In this document: piece by piece, positions 152-5,951 of the stretch
Position numbering within the stretch: the first letter of the stretch is position 1
Layout: the number at the start of each line of letters is the position of its first letter
Assembly: GCA_001303705.1 (NCBI GenBank)
Contig: LJUI01000081.1
Coordinates: forward strand, 10,795-17,028
Direction of reading: 5' to 3'
Length of the DNA: 6,234 nucleotides
From: a candidate division TA06 bacterium SM23_40
GTDB lineage: Bacteria; LJUI01; SM1-40
Made by a program: the position numbers and the translations under genes
The notes under the pieces: generated by a model
What the model saw: only the letters and a program-made list of their open reading frames with translations
Told to the model about the DNA's origin: nothing
The model's database searches: none

Positions 152-742
152 ATGCGAAATTCGCCGGGACCGGCTCTTCGCAGGATTACACTGCTGGCAG
201 TGGCAGTGAGCGTCAGCGTCCTGTTGGGCTCGTGCCGCCCTGCTGCCGAGCAGGAGGAGCGGGCGGCCGTCCCTTCGCCGATCATCACGCTCGACACCAT
301 GACGCTATCGGTCGGCCCCGGGCCGACCGATCACTCGTCGGAATTCGTGTCCTCGGTGGCCGGGGGTGACATCCTCGTCAAGCTCGGGTACACGGCCAAT
401 CCGTTTCCGGGCACGAACTGGAATTCGAATCGTGACTACGCGAACGTCGTCGCGAGCTTCACATCGCTGGTGATGATGTGCGGGGATGCACCGGTGATGC
501 CTTTGAAAGCTGAGCTTCTGGGTCCCCATGATGTTGTTCGGGATATCACGCACAAGGAATCGAGAGACAGGCCTCAGATCTGGTTCCGCAACGACCCGGA
601 GCATGGCTTGCACCGGGACCAGGCCCAGCTGCTCTATCGCTTTCCTCCCTGTGGGGAGTCCGGCGTGGTGACGGTGCGAGTTGAGGCAACCGAGGAAGTC
701 ACACTGAGAATGAATGTCTACCAGGAAAGGGTACAGCGATGA
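152..742 (+). CDS. Small predicted lipoprotein of unknown function
   Basis: This 196-residue protein is not recognised as a known family. Residues 1-28 look like a lipoprotein signal peptide: arginines at 2, 10 and 11, a hydrophobic stretch (about 12-25), then LLGSC with Cys28 as the likely lipidated residue. The G at -2 of the lipobox is less usual. A flexible, charged linker (about 29-44) leads to a body rich in alternating hydrophobic residues, probably beta strands. Cys110 and Cys167 are the only cysteines in the mature body and could form a disulfide. The start at 152 is chosen because AGGAGG (136-141) lies 10 bases upstream and because it begins exactly at the signal peptide. Its stop overlaps the next gene's start (ATGA, 739-742), so the two are probably co-transcribed and translationally coupled. 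It may be an accessory or anchoring partner of the phosphoesterase (inference). A perfect 25-base palindrome lies in codons 52-60. Confidence 0.8.
   Translation: MRNSPGPALRRITLLAVAVSVSVLLGSCRPAAEQEERAAVPSPIITLDTMTLSVGPGPTDHSSEFVSSVAGGDILVKLGYTANPFPGTNWNSNRDYANVVASFTSLVMMCGDAPVMPLKAELLGPHDVVRDITHKESRDRPQIWFRNDPEHGLHRDQAQLLYRFPPCGESGVVTVRVEATEEVTLRMNVYQERVQR
307..331. repeat. Perfect 25-base palindrome inside the lipoprotein gene
   Basis: The left arm ATCGGTCGGCCC (307-318) and right arm GGGCCGACCGAT (320-331) are exact reverse complements around a single central base, C319. As RNA it would form a stem of about 10 bp with a 5-base loop (317-321). It spans codons 52-60 of the lipoprotein, at the junction between the linker and the folded body. 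Whether it acts as an mRNA hairpin, as a binding site for a dimeric protein, or has no role cannot be told from sequence. Confidence 0.9.
723..730 (+). promoter_or_regulatory. Ribosome-binding site deciding the phosphoesterase start
   Basis: AGGAAAGG lies 8 bases upstream of the ATG at 739, inside the last codons of the lipoprotein gene. The alternative in-frame ATG at 781, which would give a more compact signal peptide, has no comparable purine-rich site before it. This site and the ATGA overlap favour 739. Confidence 0.6.
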
Positions 743-2601
743 AGATCCATCGAGCGACATCCGGTACGTGGCCGACAGCAATGAGGTTTCTGGTTGCTGT
801 GCACTTACTGGGGATGGCGTGTCTTCTCGCGCTGAGTGGTTCGGCTCTCGGGGCATCTCGCGGAGAGGACTTCCAGTTTGCGGTTCTCAGCGATCGCACC
901 GGCAGCGCGGTCCCCGGCATCTTCGAGGCGGTGATCGAGGAGGTGGCACGGCTGAATCCCGACCTGGTGATGTCGGTGGGCGACTATATCGAGGGGTACG
1001 TCGATGATGCGGCGGCTGTGAATGCTGAATATGACGAGTTCTTCGAGCTACTCGAGCCTCTGACCGTGCCGTACTACCTTGTCCCGGGGAATCACGAAAT
1101 CTGGAGCGATCTGAGTGGAGAGATATGGGACAAGCGAGTAGGGAGGCGATACTACTCGTTCGACTACGAGGGATGCCACTTCATCTTCCTCGATACGAGC
1201 ACGATCGATCAGAGTGAGGATATGGACGAGGCACAACTCAAGTGGCTGGAGAAGGATCTGAAGAAATACCGGAAAGCGAAGCTCACATTCGTCTTCTTCC
1301 ATAAGCCGTTCTGGTTCGAGGCCATGCGGGCCGGCAGGGACGATGTCCTCCACACCCTGTTCAAGGAATTCGGGGTCGACTACGTCTTTACCGGGCACTA
1401 CCACGTTTACTGTGCGGCCGAGTGGGACGGTATCCACTACTACATCACCGGGAGCTCGGGCGGATCGTTCGGTGAACCATCCGAGGAGCGCGGCAGGTTC
1501 TTCGGCTATATGTGGGTGACAGTTGAGGACGACGAGGTCGATGTCGCGTTGATCAAGCTGGGGAATGTGCTCGAGTCCGATTACGTTGCGTTCAGGGACC
1601 TCCAGCAGATAGCCCAGATCGAGACGACGGGAGTGGTCGTATCGCAGCTCTCTACTCAGGAGAATATCGAGGAAATCGGGGGGCCCATCCAGGTCTCGCT
1701 CACCAGCCTGTGGGGAGCGAGTCTCGAGGGGATGATAGCCTGGGACACCCGGGCATGGGTCGTGGAACCGGAGTCTCGAGCCTACAACGTGGGCCCCGAT
1801 GAGAAGGTGAGCCTCCCGTTTGCAGTCGAACTCGACGACAGAGAAAATATCTATCCGCTGCCCTCGTTCGAGATCACCTACCCCTACGGCGATGGGAAGA
1901 AGCTCACTCTCGAGGTTCCCCTGGAGTTGGTTCGCGTAGCGATCTCCCCGACTCTCAAAACGGCGCCGAAGATCGATGGTCTGCTGGAGAACGATGTGTG
2001 GGATGATCTCGTGCCGATCACCGTCTTCGGCTCGCCCGACGGGGAACGGAGGGGGACCGAGACGCTGCGGTTCTACTTCGGCCACCACGACGAACATCTC
2101 TATCTGGCGACGTGGTGCCGCGAATCGAGTGTGGGCGAGCTGGTCGCCAATACCACCGCCGATGAGCGAGATGGGCCTCTGTGGCAGGAGGATTGCGTGG
2201 AGTATTTCTTCGATACCGACTACGACCGGAAGTCGTATGTGCAGCTATTCATCGGTCCGCAGGGAGGGGTCTTCGATCAGCTCTGCTATGTGACTCCTGA
2301 GCATTACGAATTCGATCAGGGGTGGAATGGGGGGTGGGAGGTGGCCACACATGTGGGAGAGGACTTCTGGACGACCGAGACGGCGATCGCGGTCCCAGAG
2401 CTCGACGTGGAACATGCGTTTGGCCGCCCGGAAGGTGAGGCGGAGGCTCGACCTGTAATCAGGCGAGGACCTCGTATGCAACTGGGCGAGTTGTGGGGGA
2501 TGAACCTGCGCCGCAAGCAGCCACGCGTCCAGAGCAACGCGGACTGGCAGCCACCGTTTGCGCACGATCCCACCTCGTTCGGAAGGCTCATATTCGAGTA
2601 G
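739..2601 (+). CDS. Secreted calcineurin-like metallophosphoesterase with C-terminal CBM9-like domain
   Basis: This 620-residue protein is predicted to hydrolyse a phosphomonoester or phosphodiester bond outside the cytoplasm; the substrate is unknown. The long n-region (1-16) and hydrophobic core (17-33) form a Sec signal peptide with cleavage near SALG/A (38-39). The phosphoesterase domain (about 44-275) shows the family motifs in order: D52 in SDRTG, GDYIE (D82), GNHE (117-120), H188 in FFHKP, and GHYH (219-222). The usual DxH of motif I reads D-R-T, so one common metal ligand is absent; I recall SDRTG as a recurring variant of secreted members, so the enzyme is probably active. Residues about 290-400 look like a beta-sandwich linker. 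Residues about 400-620, beginning PKIDGLLENDVWDD, resemble the CBM9-like domains found on secreted bacterial proteins, which may bind a glycan. The start at 739 follows a good ribosome-binding site and overlaps the lipoprotein stop; 781 is the alternative. Confidence 0.9.
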   Translation: MKIHRATSGTWPTAMRFLVAVHLLGMACLLALSGSALGASRGEDFQFAVLSDRTGSAVPGIFEAVIEEVARLNPDLVMSVGDYIEGYVDDAAAVNAEYDEFFELLEPLTVPYYLVPGNHEIWSDLSGEIWDKRVGRRYYSFDYEGCHFIFLDTSTIDQSEDMDEAQLKWLEKDLKKYRKAKLTFVFFHKPFWFEAMRAGRDDVLHTLFKEFGVDYVFTGHYHVYCAAEWDGIHYYITGSSGGSFGEPSEERGRFFGYMWVTVEDDEVDVALIKLGNVLESDYVAFRDLQQIAQIETTGVVVSQLSTQENIEEIGGPIQVSLTSLWGASLEGMIAWDTRAWVVEPESRAYNVGPDEKVSLPFAVELDDRENIYPLPSFEITYPYGDGKKLTLEVPLELVRVAISPTLKTAPKIDGLLENDVWDDLVPITVFGSPDGERRGTETLRFYFGHHDEHLYLATWCRESSVGELVANTTADERDGPLWQEDCVEYFFDTDYDRKSYVQLFIGPQGGVFDQLCYVTPEHYEFDQGWNGGWEVATHVGEDFWTTETAIAVPELDVEHAFGRPEGEAEARPVIRRGPRMQLGELWGMNLRRKQPRVQSNADWQPPFAHDPTSFGRLIFE

Positions 2602-2840: not shown

Positions 2841-2853
2841 CCTCCGCAGGAGG
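2841..2853 (+). promoter_or_regulatory. Ribosome-binding site of the large envelope gene, within a small hairpin
   Basis: AGGAGG at 2848-2853 is a near-ideal Shine-Dalgarno site, 6 bases before the ATG at 2860 and only 3 before the adjacent ATG at 2857. It decides the start: the open frame continues back to an ATG at 2713, but that stretch has no such site. CCTCC (2841-2845) can pair with GGAGG (2849-2853) across a three-base loop, GCA, giving a compact all-Watson-Crick stem that would hide the site. Confidence 0.75.
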
Positions 2854-2859
2854 TCAATG

Positions 2860-5220
2860 ATGAGTAAGTATCGCATGGATCTAGAATCGAGAGTTGCCCG
2901 GGCCATCGCCGTGACTGTCCACCTGGCCATTATCCTCGTGGGCTCCTTTGCCTGCGGGCGGGCTGCCGGATCGCCGTCAGAGATGAGCGCGCCGGTGAGG
3001 GGTGTGACTGACCTGACGCTTAGAGATGTGGCGACGATACATCTTCCACAGGGCGCCCTGCCCGAGGGGACGGTCCTTTCGCTAGCTTCTGCCGAGCGGC
3101 CGAGGGCTGCGCTGCCGGAAGGAGAGCGGCTCGTGAGTGCGGTGGTTCATGTTGCCCCGGACGATCTGGCGTTCCGCAAGCCTGTGAGCCTTCGGATCTT
3201 TTTCGATACCAGACGCCTGCCCAGGGGCACCTCGGGACCCGACGGTCGAGTCTCTGTCGCCCTCCACAACGGGTATTCGTGGATCAGGGTGGGCGATGCG
3301 GCCGTTGACACAGAGAAGGGATCCGTCTCTGCCGAGGTCTATCACGGGGGAGAATTCGTGGTCCTGGTGCGCGAGCGAGACTGGGGCATTGTCGAAGCCC
3401 CTCTCAGTCGCGGGGCGACACCTATCATCGTAGTATCCGGCCTTCCCATGGGGCGAGGCGAATGGGCCGATTTCGAACGGTACTCCCGTACAAGAGGAAT
3501 GGGCCCTGTCTGGACGTTCGAGTATCCCCTCGACCAGGGAGTAGAACGTGCAGCGCAGCTGCTTGCGGCTGAGGTGAGCAGGCTGAGCGAGCGGCACGGG
3601 TCGTTTCAGTTCGATCTCGTCGGCCACGGGGTCGGCGGGCTGGTGGCACTCCGGTTCGGGCTCGACCCCGAGCTGTGCGGGGAGCGTATCGCGCGGGCGA
3701 TCATCACGCTCGGGACGCCCACAAGAGGCACTGAGATGGCGGATGAAGAGAGAGTGCTTGGGATCCTGGCCTCGGCGGGCGATCTCGGCGACACATTGGA
3801 CGCACGGGAGTTGGCGGTCCTCTTCTCGGTCCTCGAAGCGATGGGGAGGCATCGGTCCGATCTCTTGCCTAATGGGGAGAACGAAGTGCTAACGGCGATC
3901 GAAGGGCTCAACGCAGCGTTCCGCCGGAAGGCGTTCACCTTCGGCAAGGGAGGCTGCCCCAGGTACAGAGTCGAGTGCCTGAGCGGGTCGAGATCCCTCC
4001 TTCCGGCGCGGCTCGCTGCGTACGGGCCTGCCGAGATACGCGACGGCGAGGGCGATACATATATTTCGGTGGCCAGTACGCTGCTGACGCCGATCGAGGA
4101 TGCGCCGTTTGCTGTAGACCACTTCCGCCTGATCCATCGGAATGAGGTCTTCGATGATGTGCTGGGATACATCGGGCTTGGGGGAATCGCCTGGCCCGAG
4201 CTGTTCGAGAGCATCGGGACGCACGAGGGTCGATTGAGGATCGTCGATGTATGGGAGAAGGAATTCCTTCTCAATCAGGGAGATGAGCGCAGCCTCGCCG
4301 TTCTCCTCGACCTGGCGCGCAACTTTCTGCGCTCGACCGAGCGGGACGCTATTCTGTTTACGAATGGGGACAATGACACCTATCCCCTCTGGTATGTTCA
4401 GGTCAAGGACAGCATCCGCCCCGATGTGGCAGTCGCCAATCTGAGCCTCCTCAATACGAGTGTGTTCATCAAGTACCTCAAGGGCGATCCTCACCGCGCG
4501 CCGATTACACTCAGCGACGCGGAAATCGATAGCCTCCGGGCGGTGAAGGAAGATGGCCGGTTGGTGAGGCGGGTCTCGGATCAGGTGGTGGGACACCTGA
4601 TCGAGGAGAATGGCTGGGAACGCCCGCTGTACTACGCGGTCACACTCAATCCCACCAATATGGCTCTGTTCGACCCGCACAGGCGGATCCTGGAGGGTCT
4701 TGTCTATCACGTACTGCCGGCTGGGCCGGGAGAGGAACCGAGTACAGCGGTTGATGTCGATATATGTCTCCGCAATCTCGAGGAGCTCTATTCGTATGAG
4801 GGCCTGTTCGACGATCACAATAGTCTGAGGAGCGATCTCGATCCGGACTTGAGGATGATCATCAGCAACTACGCGGCGCTCTACTTTGCCGTGGGAGAGG
4901 AATTTCAGGAGCAGGACCAGCATGAGCGGGCCATGACGATGTTCCGCAAGGGGCTCTCCTTTGCACCCGGCCATGCGAGCCCTCGGCTCGCTCTCGCGGA
5001 GCTCTCTCTCGAAATGGGTGAAGACGAGGAGGCCGAACACTGGTATCGTGAGGCGTTTCGCGCCGATCCCGGTTCGTTTTCGGCTCTGGAGGCGCTAGCC
5101 AGATACTATTTCGATCACGACAGGCGGGCGGAAGGGATGCGTATCCTCGCACGATGGCTCGAGCGCCATCCGGACGATGAGCGCGTGCTCGAACTCATGA
5201 CGGGGGCGCCAGTACAGTAG
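2860..5220 (+). CDS. Envelope protein: ZU5-like, pseudo-lipase, DUF2723-C-terminal-like and TPR domains
   Basis: This 786-residue protein starts at 2860, second of two adjacent ATGs, from Shine-Dalgarno spacing. An N-terminal hydrophobic segment (about 14-31) ends in SFAC, so Cys32 could be lipidated, but the lipobox is poor. Residues about 45-170 form a beta domain with HLPQGALPEGT, resembling ZU5-type domains. Residues about 186-440 resemble alpha/beta-hydrolase lipases: an opening strand (PIIVVSG, 188-194), the nucleophile elbow, LGTPTRG after it, an acid candidate D399 in GEGDTYISVAS, and a His candidate H421 in VDHFRLIH. The elbow reads GHGVGG (255-260), so the nucleophile position is Gly257, not Ser, and classical esterase activity is unlikely. 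Residues about 475-625 match the soluble C-terminus of DUF2723 proteins as I know it: FTNGDNDTYPLWYVQ (500-514), RPDV, RPLYYAVT (588-595). The many membrane helices of DUF2723 proteins are absent. Three TPR-like units fill about 668-786 and suggest protein binding. It probably acts as an exported scaffold or sensor (inference). Confidence 0.85.
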   Translation: MSKYRMDLESRVARAIAVTVHLAIILVGSFACGRAAGSPSEMSAPVRGVTDLTLRDVATIHLPQGALPEGTVLSLASAERPRAALPEGERLVSAVVHVAPDDLAFRKPVSLRIFFDTRRLPRGTSGPDGRVSVALHNGYSWIRVGDAAVDTEKGSVSAEVYHGGEFVVLVRERDWGIVEAPLSRGATPIIVVSGLPMGRGEWADFERYSRTRGMGPVWTFEYPLDQGVERAAQLLAAEVSRLSERHGSFQFDLVGHGVGGLVALRFGLDPELCGERIARAIITLGTPTRGTEMADEERVLGILASAGDLGDTLDARELAVLFSVLEAMGRHRSDLLPNGENEVLTAIEGLNAAFRRKAFTFGKGGCPRYRVECLSGSRSLLPARLAAYGPAEIRDGEGDTYISVASTLLTPIEDAPFAVDHFRLIHRNEVFDDVLGYIGLGGIAWPELFESIGTHEGRLRIVDVWEKEFLLNQGDERSLAVLLDLARNFLRSTERDAILFTNGDNDTYPLWYVQVKDSIRPDVAVANLSLLNTSVFIKYLKGDPHRAPITLSDAEIDSLRAVKEDGRLVRRVSDQVVGHLIEENGWERPLYYAVTLNPTNMALFDPHRRILEGLVYHVLPAGPGEEPSTAVDVDICLRNLEELYSYEGLFDDHNSLRSDLDPDLRMIISNYAALYFAVGEEFQEQDQHERAMTMFRKGLSFAPGHASPRLALAELSLEMGEDEEAEHWYREAFRADPGSFSALEALARYYFDHDRRAEGMRILARWLERHPDDERVLELMTGAPVQ
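4255..4272. repeat. Perfect 18-base palindrome in the large envelope gene
   Basis: GAGAAGGAA (4255-4263) is followed without a gap by its exact reverse complement TTCCTTCTC (4264-4272). It lies in codons of the WEKEFLLNQ stretch, between the hydrolase-like and GDNDT-type domains. It could be a chance result of codon choice; no function can be assigned. Confidence 0.8.
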
Positions 5221-5256
5221 TGTCGGATCGAACGGATGGGCACGCAGCGGCCGCAT

Positions 5257-5328
5257 ACGTCCAGGGGCGCCAGGCCGTCTGGGGGCACCGGACCATCTGG
5301 GGGCACCGAGCCATCTGGAGGCACTGGT
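5257..5328. repeat. 18-bp tandem repeat, about four copies
   Basis: Units start at 5257, 5275, 5293 and 5311 in an exact 18-base register. The two central units are CCGTCTGGGGGCACCGGA and CCATCTGGGGGCACCGAG; the last is CCATCTGGAGGCACTGGT, and the first is clearly decayed (about 12 of 18 matching the second). A possible fifth copy after 5328 slips register. The array lies in the 170-base gap between the envelope gene and the sigma gene. In frame with the sigma gene it would read as the hexapeptides AVWGHR, TIWGHR, AIWRHW. Confidence 0.85.
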
Positions 5329-5390
5329 CGGTCAATGGGGCACGCAGGACGGCGTGGCGATGCGGAGTCATTGACAGGATGGGCGGGACG

Positions 5391-5951
5391 ATGACGGACG
5401 AGCAGTTGGTGGCGAAGCTGAAGGCCGGGGAGACCGGGGCATTCGACCTCCTCTACCAGCGACATGGTCCGCCGTTGCTCAACTTCATCAACCGCATCAT
5501 CCAGGATCGCGATCGTGCGGAGGATCTGCTCCAGGAGACATTCCTCCGCGTCTTCAGGCACGTCTCGAAGTATCGGCCTGAGGCTAAAGTCTCAACGTGG
5601 ATCTACCGGATCGCCACGAATCTCTGTTATAACGAGCTCCGCTCCAGGAGGAGACACCGACTCGTCTCTATAGATGGCAGAGAGGACGCCAGGATCGAGT
5701 CATCGCTGTGCCAGTCCAGCACAAGGTGTGATGATCCCCATGCCTCACTCGTCCTCGATGAGGAGATACGTCAGGTGGAGGCGGGAATCGCCTCCCTGCC
5801 GGAGAACGAGCGGATCGTTCTCGTTTTGAGATTCTACCACGGCTACTCCTACGCGGAGATCGCCGAGATACTCGCATGTCCGCTGGGAACAGTGAAGTCG
5901 AGGCTCCACGCGGCGGTGCATCACCTCCGCAGAGTTCTCAAACGGGAGTGA
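5391..5951 (+). CDS. ECF-type RNA polymerase sigma factor
   Basis: This 186-residue protein is a two-domain sigma-70-family factor that would direct RNA polymerase to a specific promoter set. Region 2 spans about 18-90: the RAEDLLQETFLRVFRHV helix (42-58), then VSTWIYRIATNLCYNELRS (67-85), which carries the -10 recognition and melting determinants. Region 4 spans about 124-182: LPENERIVLVLRFYHGYSYA and the helix-turn-helix AEIAEILACPLGTVKSRL. Length and absence of region 3 are typical of ECF factors. The start is uncertain. The frame is open back to a GTG at 5220 that overlaps the previous stop, but that stretch is a repeat encoding a Trp/His/Arg-rich peptide with no ribosome-binding site. 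ATG 5391 begins MTDEQLVAKL, the usual family start, with AGGATGG (5376-5382) 8 bases ahead; ATG 5379 is the alternative. Cys107 and Cys113 lie in the interdomain linker. It is followed directly by an anti-sigma gene, its likely inhibitor. Confidence 0.93.
   Translation: MTDEQLVAKLKAGETGAFDLLYQRHGPPLLNFINRIIQDRDRAEDLLQETFLRVFRHVSKYRPEAKVSTWIYRIATNLCYNELRSRRRHRLVSIDGREDARIESSLCQSSTRCDDPHASLVLDEEIRQVEAGIASLPENERIVLVLRFYHGYSYAEIAEILACPLGTVKSRLHAAVHHLRRVLKRE

Follow-up and report, generated by a model that had tools for sequence, protein, structure and literature searches.

P0001, a 786-residue protein encoded by a fusion gene at 2860..5220 (+) of the window (the whole 6,234-nucleotide stretch analysed), is best explained as a genuine exported multidomain protein in which the extracytoplasmic half of a GT117 (CAZy) enzyme is complete while the GT-C half and a working hydrolase are missing, and which acts as a binding adaptor of the envelope (probability about 0.5). 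Its domains run in the order signal sequence, ZU5, alpha/beta-hydrolase and finally the extracytoplasmic half, in full, of a PF11028 protein (PF11028, now TMEM260-like, was formerly named DUF2723). The initial annotation had described four domains fused in one exported protein, namely ZU5, pseudo-hydrolase, a DUF2723 C-terminus and TPRs. All four were recovered, and one boundary fell: because homology to the DUF2723 C-terminus spans about residues 470–780, the TPRs are part of the GT117 module rather than a further domain fused to it.

Gene, signal sequence and the N-terminal modules

Translation starts at ATG 2860 or ATG 2857, both preceded by AGGAGG, a probable ribosome-binding site at 2849..2854 (+; to within a few bases), and the stop codon at 5218–5220 is counted in the gene. 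Hydropathy assigns a signal sequence to residues 1–32 (2860..2955, +). The hydrophobic stretch covers residues 10–36 and contains SFAC; it is closed by VGSFAC, in which Cys32 is present and the residues at −3 and −2 are atypical for a lipobox. As the lipobox is not canonical, lipoprotein status is unsure. Hydropathy prediction over the whole protein found no transmembrane segment beyond the signal-sequence stretch. No close relative of the whole protein was found in the genome contigs searched, among which its phylum is represented by one genome, and a PHROGs search gave no match.

The upstream neighbours are a gene for a 196-residue lipoprotein, whose LGSC lipobox is canonical, and one for a metallophosphoesterase (Pfam E 3e-17). 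The latter, at window positions 739–2601, is an exported calcineurin-like phosphoesterase whose C-terminal 220 residues resemble a family 9 carbohydrate-binding module, with a match to CBM9_2 below threshold (E 0.06). Downstream lie an ECF sigma factor, a zinc-finger anti-sigma factor and then the contig end. The ECF sigma frame (5220–5951) opens at GTG 5220, its sigma-like part begins at about residue 51–58, and translation probably begins at an ATG around 5370–5390. No glycosylation gene was found among the neighbours of P0001 in the window. The initial annotation had taken the sigma/anti-sigma pair and the phosphoesterase as a hint of a possible cell-envelope system; no other genome with this set of neighbours was found. 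Farther upstream, outside the window, L035:3204-7571 encodes two consecutive beta-helix-like exported proteins whose N-termini are nearly identical, plus a related third, in an apparent tandem duplication.

The ZU5 core occupies about residues 60–114 (3037..3201, +), and the domain perhaps extends over 45–170. PF00791 scores 21.9 bits against the whole protein, over the curated cut-off of 21, and 25.5 bits (E 1.6e-5) against the segment alone, in a partial match covering profile positions 21–78 of 97; the profile check thus upheld the ZU5 assignment made earlier. The ZU5 domain of ZO-1 also matches the segment (E 0.008). P0001 shares with ZU5 domains of the ZO-1 and ankyrin type this Pfam match over residues 61–114, but it lacks a UPA or death domain and stands in a bacterial exported context. 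Searching the N-terminal half of P0001 against five genomes of another phylum returned nothing at E 1e-8, and single-sequence folding of that half was unusable (pLDDT 38).

Residues about 176–447 (3385..4200, +) are, by alignment, homologous to the alpha/beta-hydrolase superfamily, in keeping with the lipase-like domain proposed earlier. Twelve bacterial hydrolases align to this region with E 1e-10 to 2e-5, solved Burkholderia lipases with E 4e-4 and solved hydrolases with E 2e-4; no Pfam model exceeded its own cut-off here, and the sub-cut-off matches (DUF7379, PGAP1, Abhydrolase_6) are consistent. One hydrolase relative was found in viral contigs. The nucleophile-elbow motif, located by alignment, reads GHGVGG (3622..3639, +), so that the GxSxG serine is absent: Gly257 (codon GGG, 3628–3630) stands where the catalytic Ser is present in 12/12 of the hydrolase relatives. 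A GGG codon is at least two substitutions away from every Ser codon, so a single sequencing error cannot account for Gly257, and on both grounds the domain is probably non-catalytic. The Asp and His motifs, GEGDTYISVAS (396–406) and VDHFRLI (419–425), at 4045..4134 (+), are apparently retained, pairing with those of a Burkholderia lipase only in a weak second HMMER segment. P0001 has in common with Burkholderia-type and PGAP1-like lipases the nucleophile-elbow region, an LGTPxRG motif and, in that weak segment, apparently the Asp and His, and differs from them in the Gly for the catalytic Ser and in being joined to other domains.

The GT117 half and its membrane-free relatives

The C-terminal part comprises a GT117 (DUF2723/TMEM260-like) alpha/beta domain at about residues 471–667 (4270..4860, +), assigned by homology and a structural model, and a TPR region at residues 668–786 (4861..5217, +) within the GT117 module, which is seen by Pfam (46 bits), homology and the model. 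Residues 470–780 share homology with the C-terminal ends of large membrane proteins, with E down to 5e-40 (over residues 461–776), and identity to PF11028 proteins reaches about 50% over residues 484–566. Fifteen homologues from the genome search (E 5e-18 or better) have 7–14 predicted transmembrane segments upstream of the match, and PF11028 is carried by 5/5 of those checked with Pfam (E 3e-41 to 3e-52). The homology begins directly after the last transmembrane segment of these proteins and extends through the TPRs. P0001 itself gives no PF11028 match in Pfam, whereas the genome's other copies match strongly. The earlier reading of the block at 475–625 as the soluble C-terminus of multi-pass DUF2723 proteins, cut off from its membrane part, is therefore borne out: homologues are found at E down to 5e-40, and neither a transmembrane segment after the signal sequence nor a PF11028 match is present.

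The motifs of the alpha/beta domain are TNGDNDTYPLWYVQ (501–514), ANLSLLN (526–532) and RPLYYAVT (588–595). T501, N502, G503, D504, N505, D506, T507, W511, Q514 and N527 are invariant across 68 aligned sequences, and P0001 keeps them all. Near-invariant positions are lost in the WYIKQ segment, with W replaced by V535, Y by F536 and Q by Y539, so part of the domain surface is altered. The alpha/beta segment matches no family in the Pfam release searched, no relatives of the GT117 tail were found in viral contigs, and the literature searched held no mention of DUF2723 by name. With the GT117/TMEM260-like protein O-mannosyltransferases (PF11028), P0001 shares the whole extracytoplasmic half, an alpha/beta domain with TNGDNDT..W..Q followed by TPRs; it differs in having neither the PF11028 domain nor the transmembrane GT-C module, in its changed WYIKQ segment, and in the fusion of this half to ZU5 and the pseudo-hydrolase instead. 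O-mannosyltransferase activity of P0001 is improbable, because the catalytic module is missing from its sequence.

The AlphaFold2 model of the C-terminal half (numbered from protein residue 469) has a mean pLDDT of 94.3 and a pTM of 0.89, and shows an alpha/beta domain plus TPRs. In model numbering, strand 30–33 leads into the TNGDNDT motif and then helix 35–48, strand 56–59 ends in the NLS motif, and strand 122–125 lies at RPLYYAVT. The invariant residues of TNGDNDT..W..Q and NLS thus sit where neighbouring strands end, the position in which Rossmann-like folds usually have their ligand pocket, and form a pocket-like cluster that may bind a ligand. In structure searches with this model, the matches listed were to TPRs.

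Membrane-free carriers of the domain were surveyed in 80 loci, the best among at least 590 candidates. Nearly all of the 84 matching frames in those loci are multi-pass. Removal of contig-edge, gap and frameshift cases left one membrane-free carrier in the 80 loci, L092:4551-5795, a TPR protein with a lipoprotein-like start, from an Ignavibacteriaceae genome and with no transmembrane part upstream in any frame. A genome search added four more in other phyla, giving five in total: L134:1152-2507, with a lipoprotein-like start and TPRs, L135:4227-5489, L136:5438-6787, and L137:5530-6453, whose motif is degraded (TAGETDT). Candidates at L127 and L130 were rejected as ordinary GT117 genes broken by an assembly gap or frameshift, and those at L054 (1–588), L055, L077 and L113 as truncated by contig ends. 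The five carriers share with P0001 the same domain in an apparently exported soluble form, some with TPRs; none has a ZU5 or hydrolase Pfam match, and the ZU5 plus pseudo-hydrolase partnership was not found beyond P0001 in what was searched, a survey limited to the best 80 loci from a set of at least 590. Since membrane-free versions occur in other bacteria, the extracytoplasmic GT117 half can evidently exist on its own, as the initial annotation had suggested for this domain. The detached tail recurs, though rarely, and is new as a variant; its partner domains in P0001 are unusual. By similarity to the C-terminal half of P0001, L141:1184-8288 (genome G024) encodes three tandem DUF2723-like multi-pass proteins.

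In the tree, L092 branches within a supported group whose other members are full-length GT117 proteins of Bacteroidota, Ignavibacteriota, Fidelibacterota, Calditrichota and KSB1. A shared origin of L092 and the P0001 domain was rejected (AU p 0.018, with both branches long and the pair chosen after the first tree), which suggests that at least the L092 arrangement arose independently of that in P0001. The P0001 domain lies on a long branch, and the tree does not favour its descent from the 951-residue paralogue in the same genome (AU p 0.097, not rejected).

Proposed function of the detached half

In TMEM260, catalysis is assigned to the N-terminal GT-C module, and the luminal TPR module is proposed to recruit the substrate (PMC11292533); this recruitment is a hypothesis in the source paper (PMC11292533). 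The genome of P0001 was found to hold four PF11028 genes. With the recruiting half present, the catalytic half absent and the hydrolase dead, P0001 would most plausibly work in the envelope by binding and not by catalysis, as an adaptor, partner or reader. Its alpha/beta domain would present the conserved predicted ligand pocket and, together with the TPRs, would bind acceptor proteins, or their O-glycans, handled by the full-length GT117 enzymes; ZU5 and the pseudo-hydrolase may be further binding or structural modules. P0001 could in this way act in the protein O-mannosylation system predicted from the four PF11028 genes. That detached proteins conserve the pocket speaks for an autonomous function of the half, beyond its service to the membrane enzyme. 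Against the adaptor reading stand the lost near-invariant GT117 positions, the long branch and neighbours that are not glycosylation genes.

The fusion could instead be a chimera, in which assembly or amplification linked a hydrolase gene with a GT117 tail near the 18-nt perfect palindrome GAGAAGGAATTCCTTCTC (4255..4272, +; residues 466–471), an element present as described earlier. The palindrome, with its EcoRI site, lies exactly at the hydrolase/GT117 junction, the contig is a scaffold whose gap (an N run) ends one base before the window, and one genome represents the phylum among those searched. Several features of the gene nevertheless speak for an intact fusion: the window holds zero N and the gene no assembly gap, the frame stays open through the junction, third-position GC is 0.72 versus 0.71 in the two halves, and their synonymous codon usage correlates at 0.72. 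The contig has a second 18-nt palindrome, and detached GT117 domains were found in other genomes. The four PF11028 genes have long open frames of 680–951 residues, which gives no sign of a missing tail in any of them, and the genome (about 90% complete) yielded no membrane half lacking its tail. A chimera, which the initial annotation had raised as a possible refutation, is accordingly very improbable. We give as little credence to an active hydrolase working through another residue, an esterase that the GT117 module would target to glycans or glycoproteins of the envelope for deacylation: the Asp and His motifs appear kept, suggesting a maintained fold, but Gly257 occupies the nucleophile position and the elbow offers no alternative Ser or Cys.

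Two other explanations are somewhat less improbable. P0001 might be a regulatory decoy that competes or heteromerises with the genome's full-length GT117 enzymes, tuning or redirecting them. One of the four PF11028 proteins is 51% identical to it over residues 484–566, which fits such a role; the tree, on the other side, does not group the P0001 domain with its own paralogue (a grouping not excluded at AU p 0.097), and the altered WYIKQ segment may have contacted the membrane half. We regard this as unlikely. Slightly less probable still is that the detached half retains its own enzymatic activity, the Asp/Asn pocket being a catalytic or metal site that acts on extracytoplasmic glycans or glycoproteins. 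The Asp/Asn-rich loop, invariant in the 68 sequences, is largely retained in detached forms, but in GT-C enzymes the catalytic acid is assigned to the membrane module, in its first luminal loop (PMC11292533), and the alpha/beta segment has no Pfam match.

The binding-adaptor reading can be extended, tentatively and at clearly lower confidence, to the family: the GT117 extracytoplasmic half may be a new independent ligand-binding domain, repeatedly detached by bacteria and built into soluble proteins of the envelope, which in P0001, with a dead lipase and ZU5, would read O-mannosylated proteins. The role of the luminal half of TMEM260/GT117 enzymes has so far only been proposed (PMC11292533), and for the core O-glycan of Bacteroidota, likened to eukaryotic O-mannosylation, the making machinery is still to be found (PMC12871550). 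A natural detached half that keeps the invariant pocket and could be expressed without the membrane protein offers a direct route to its binding target.
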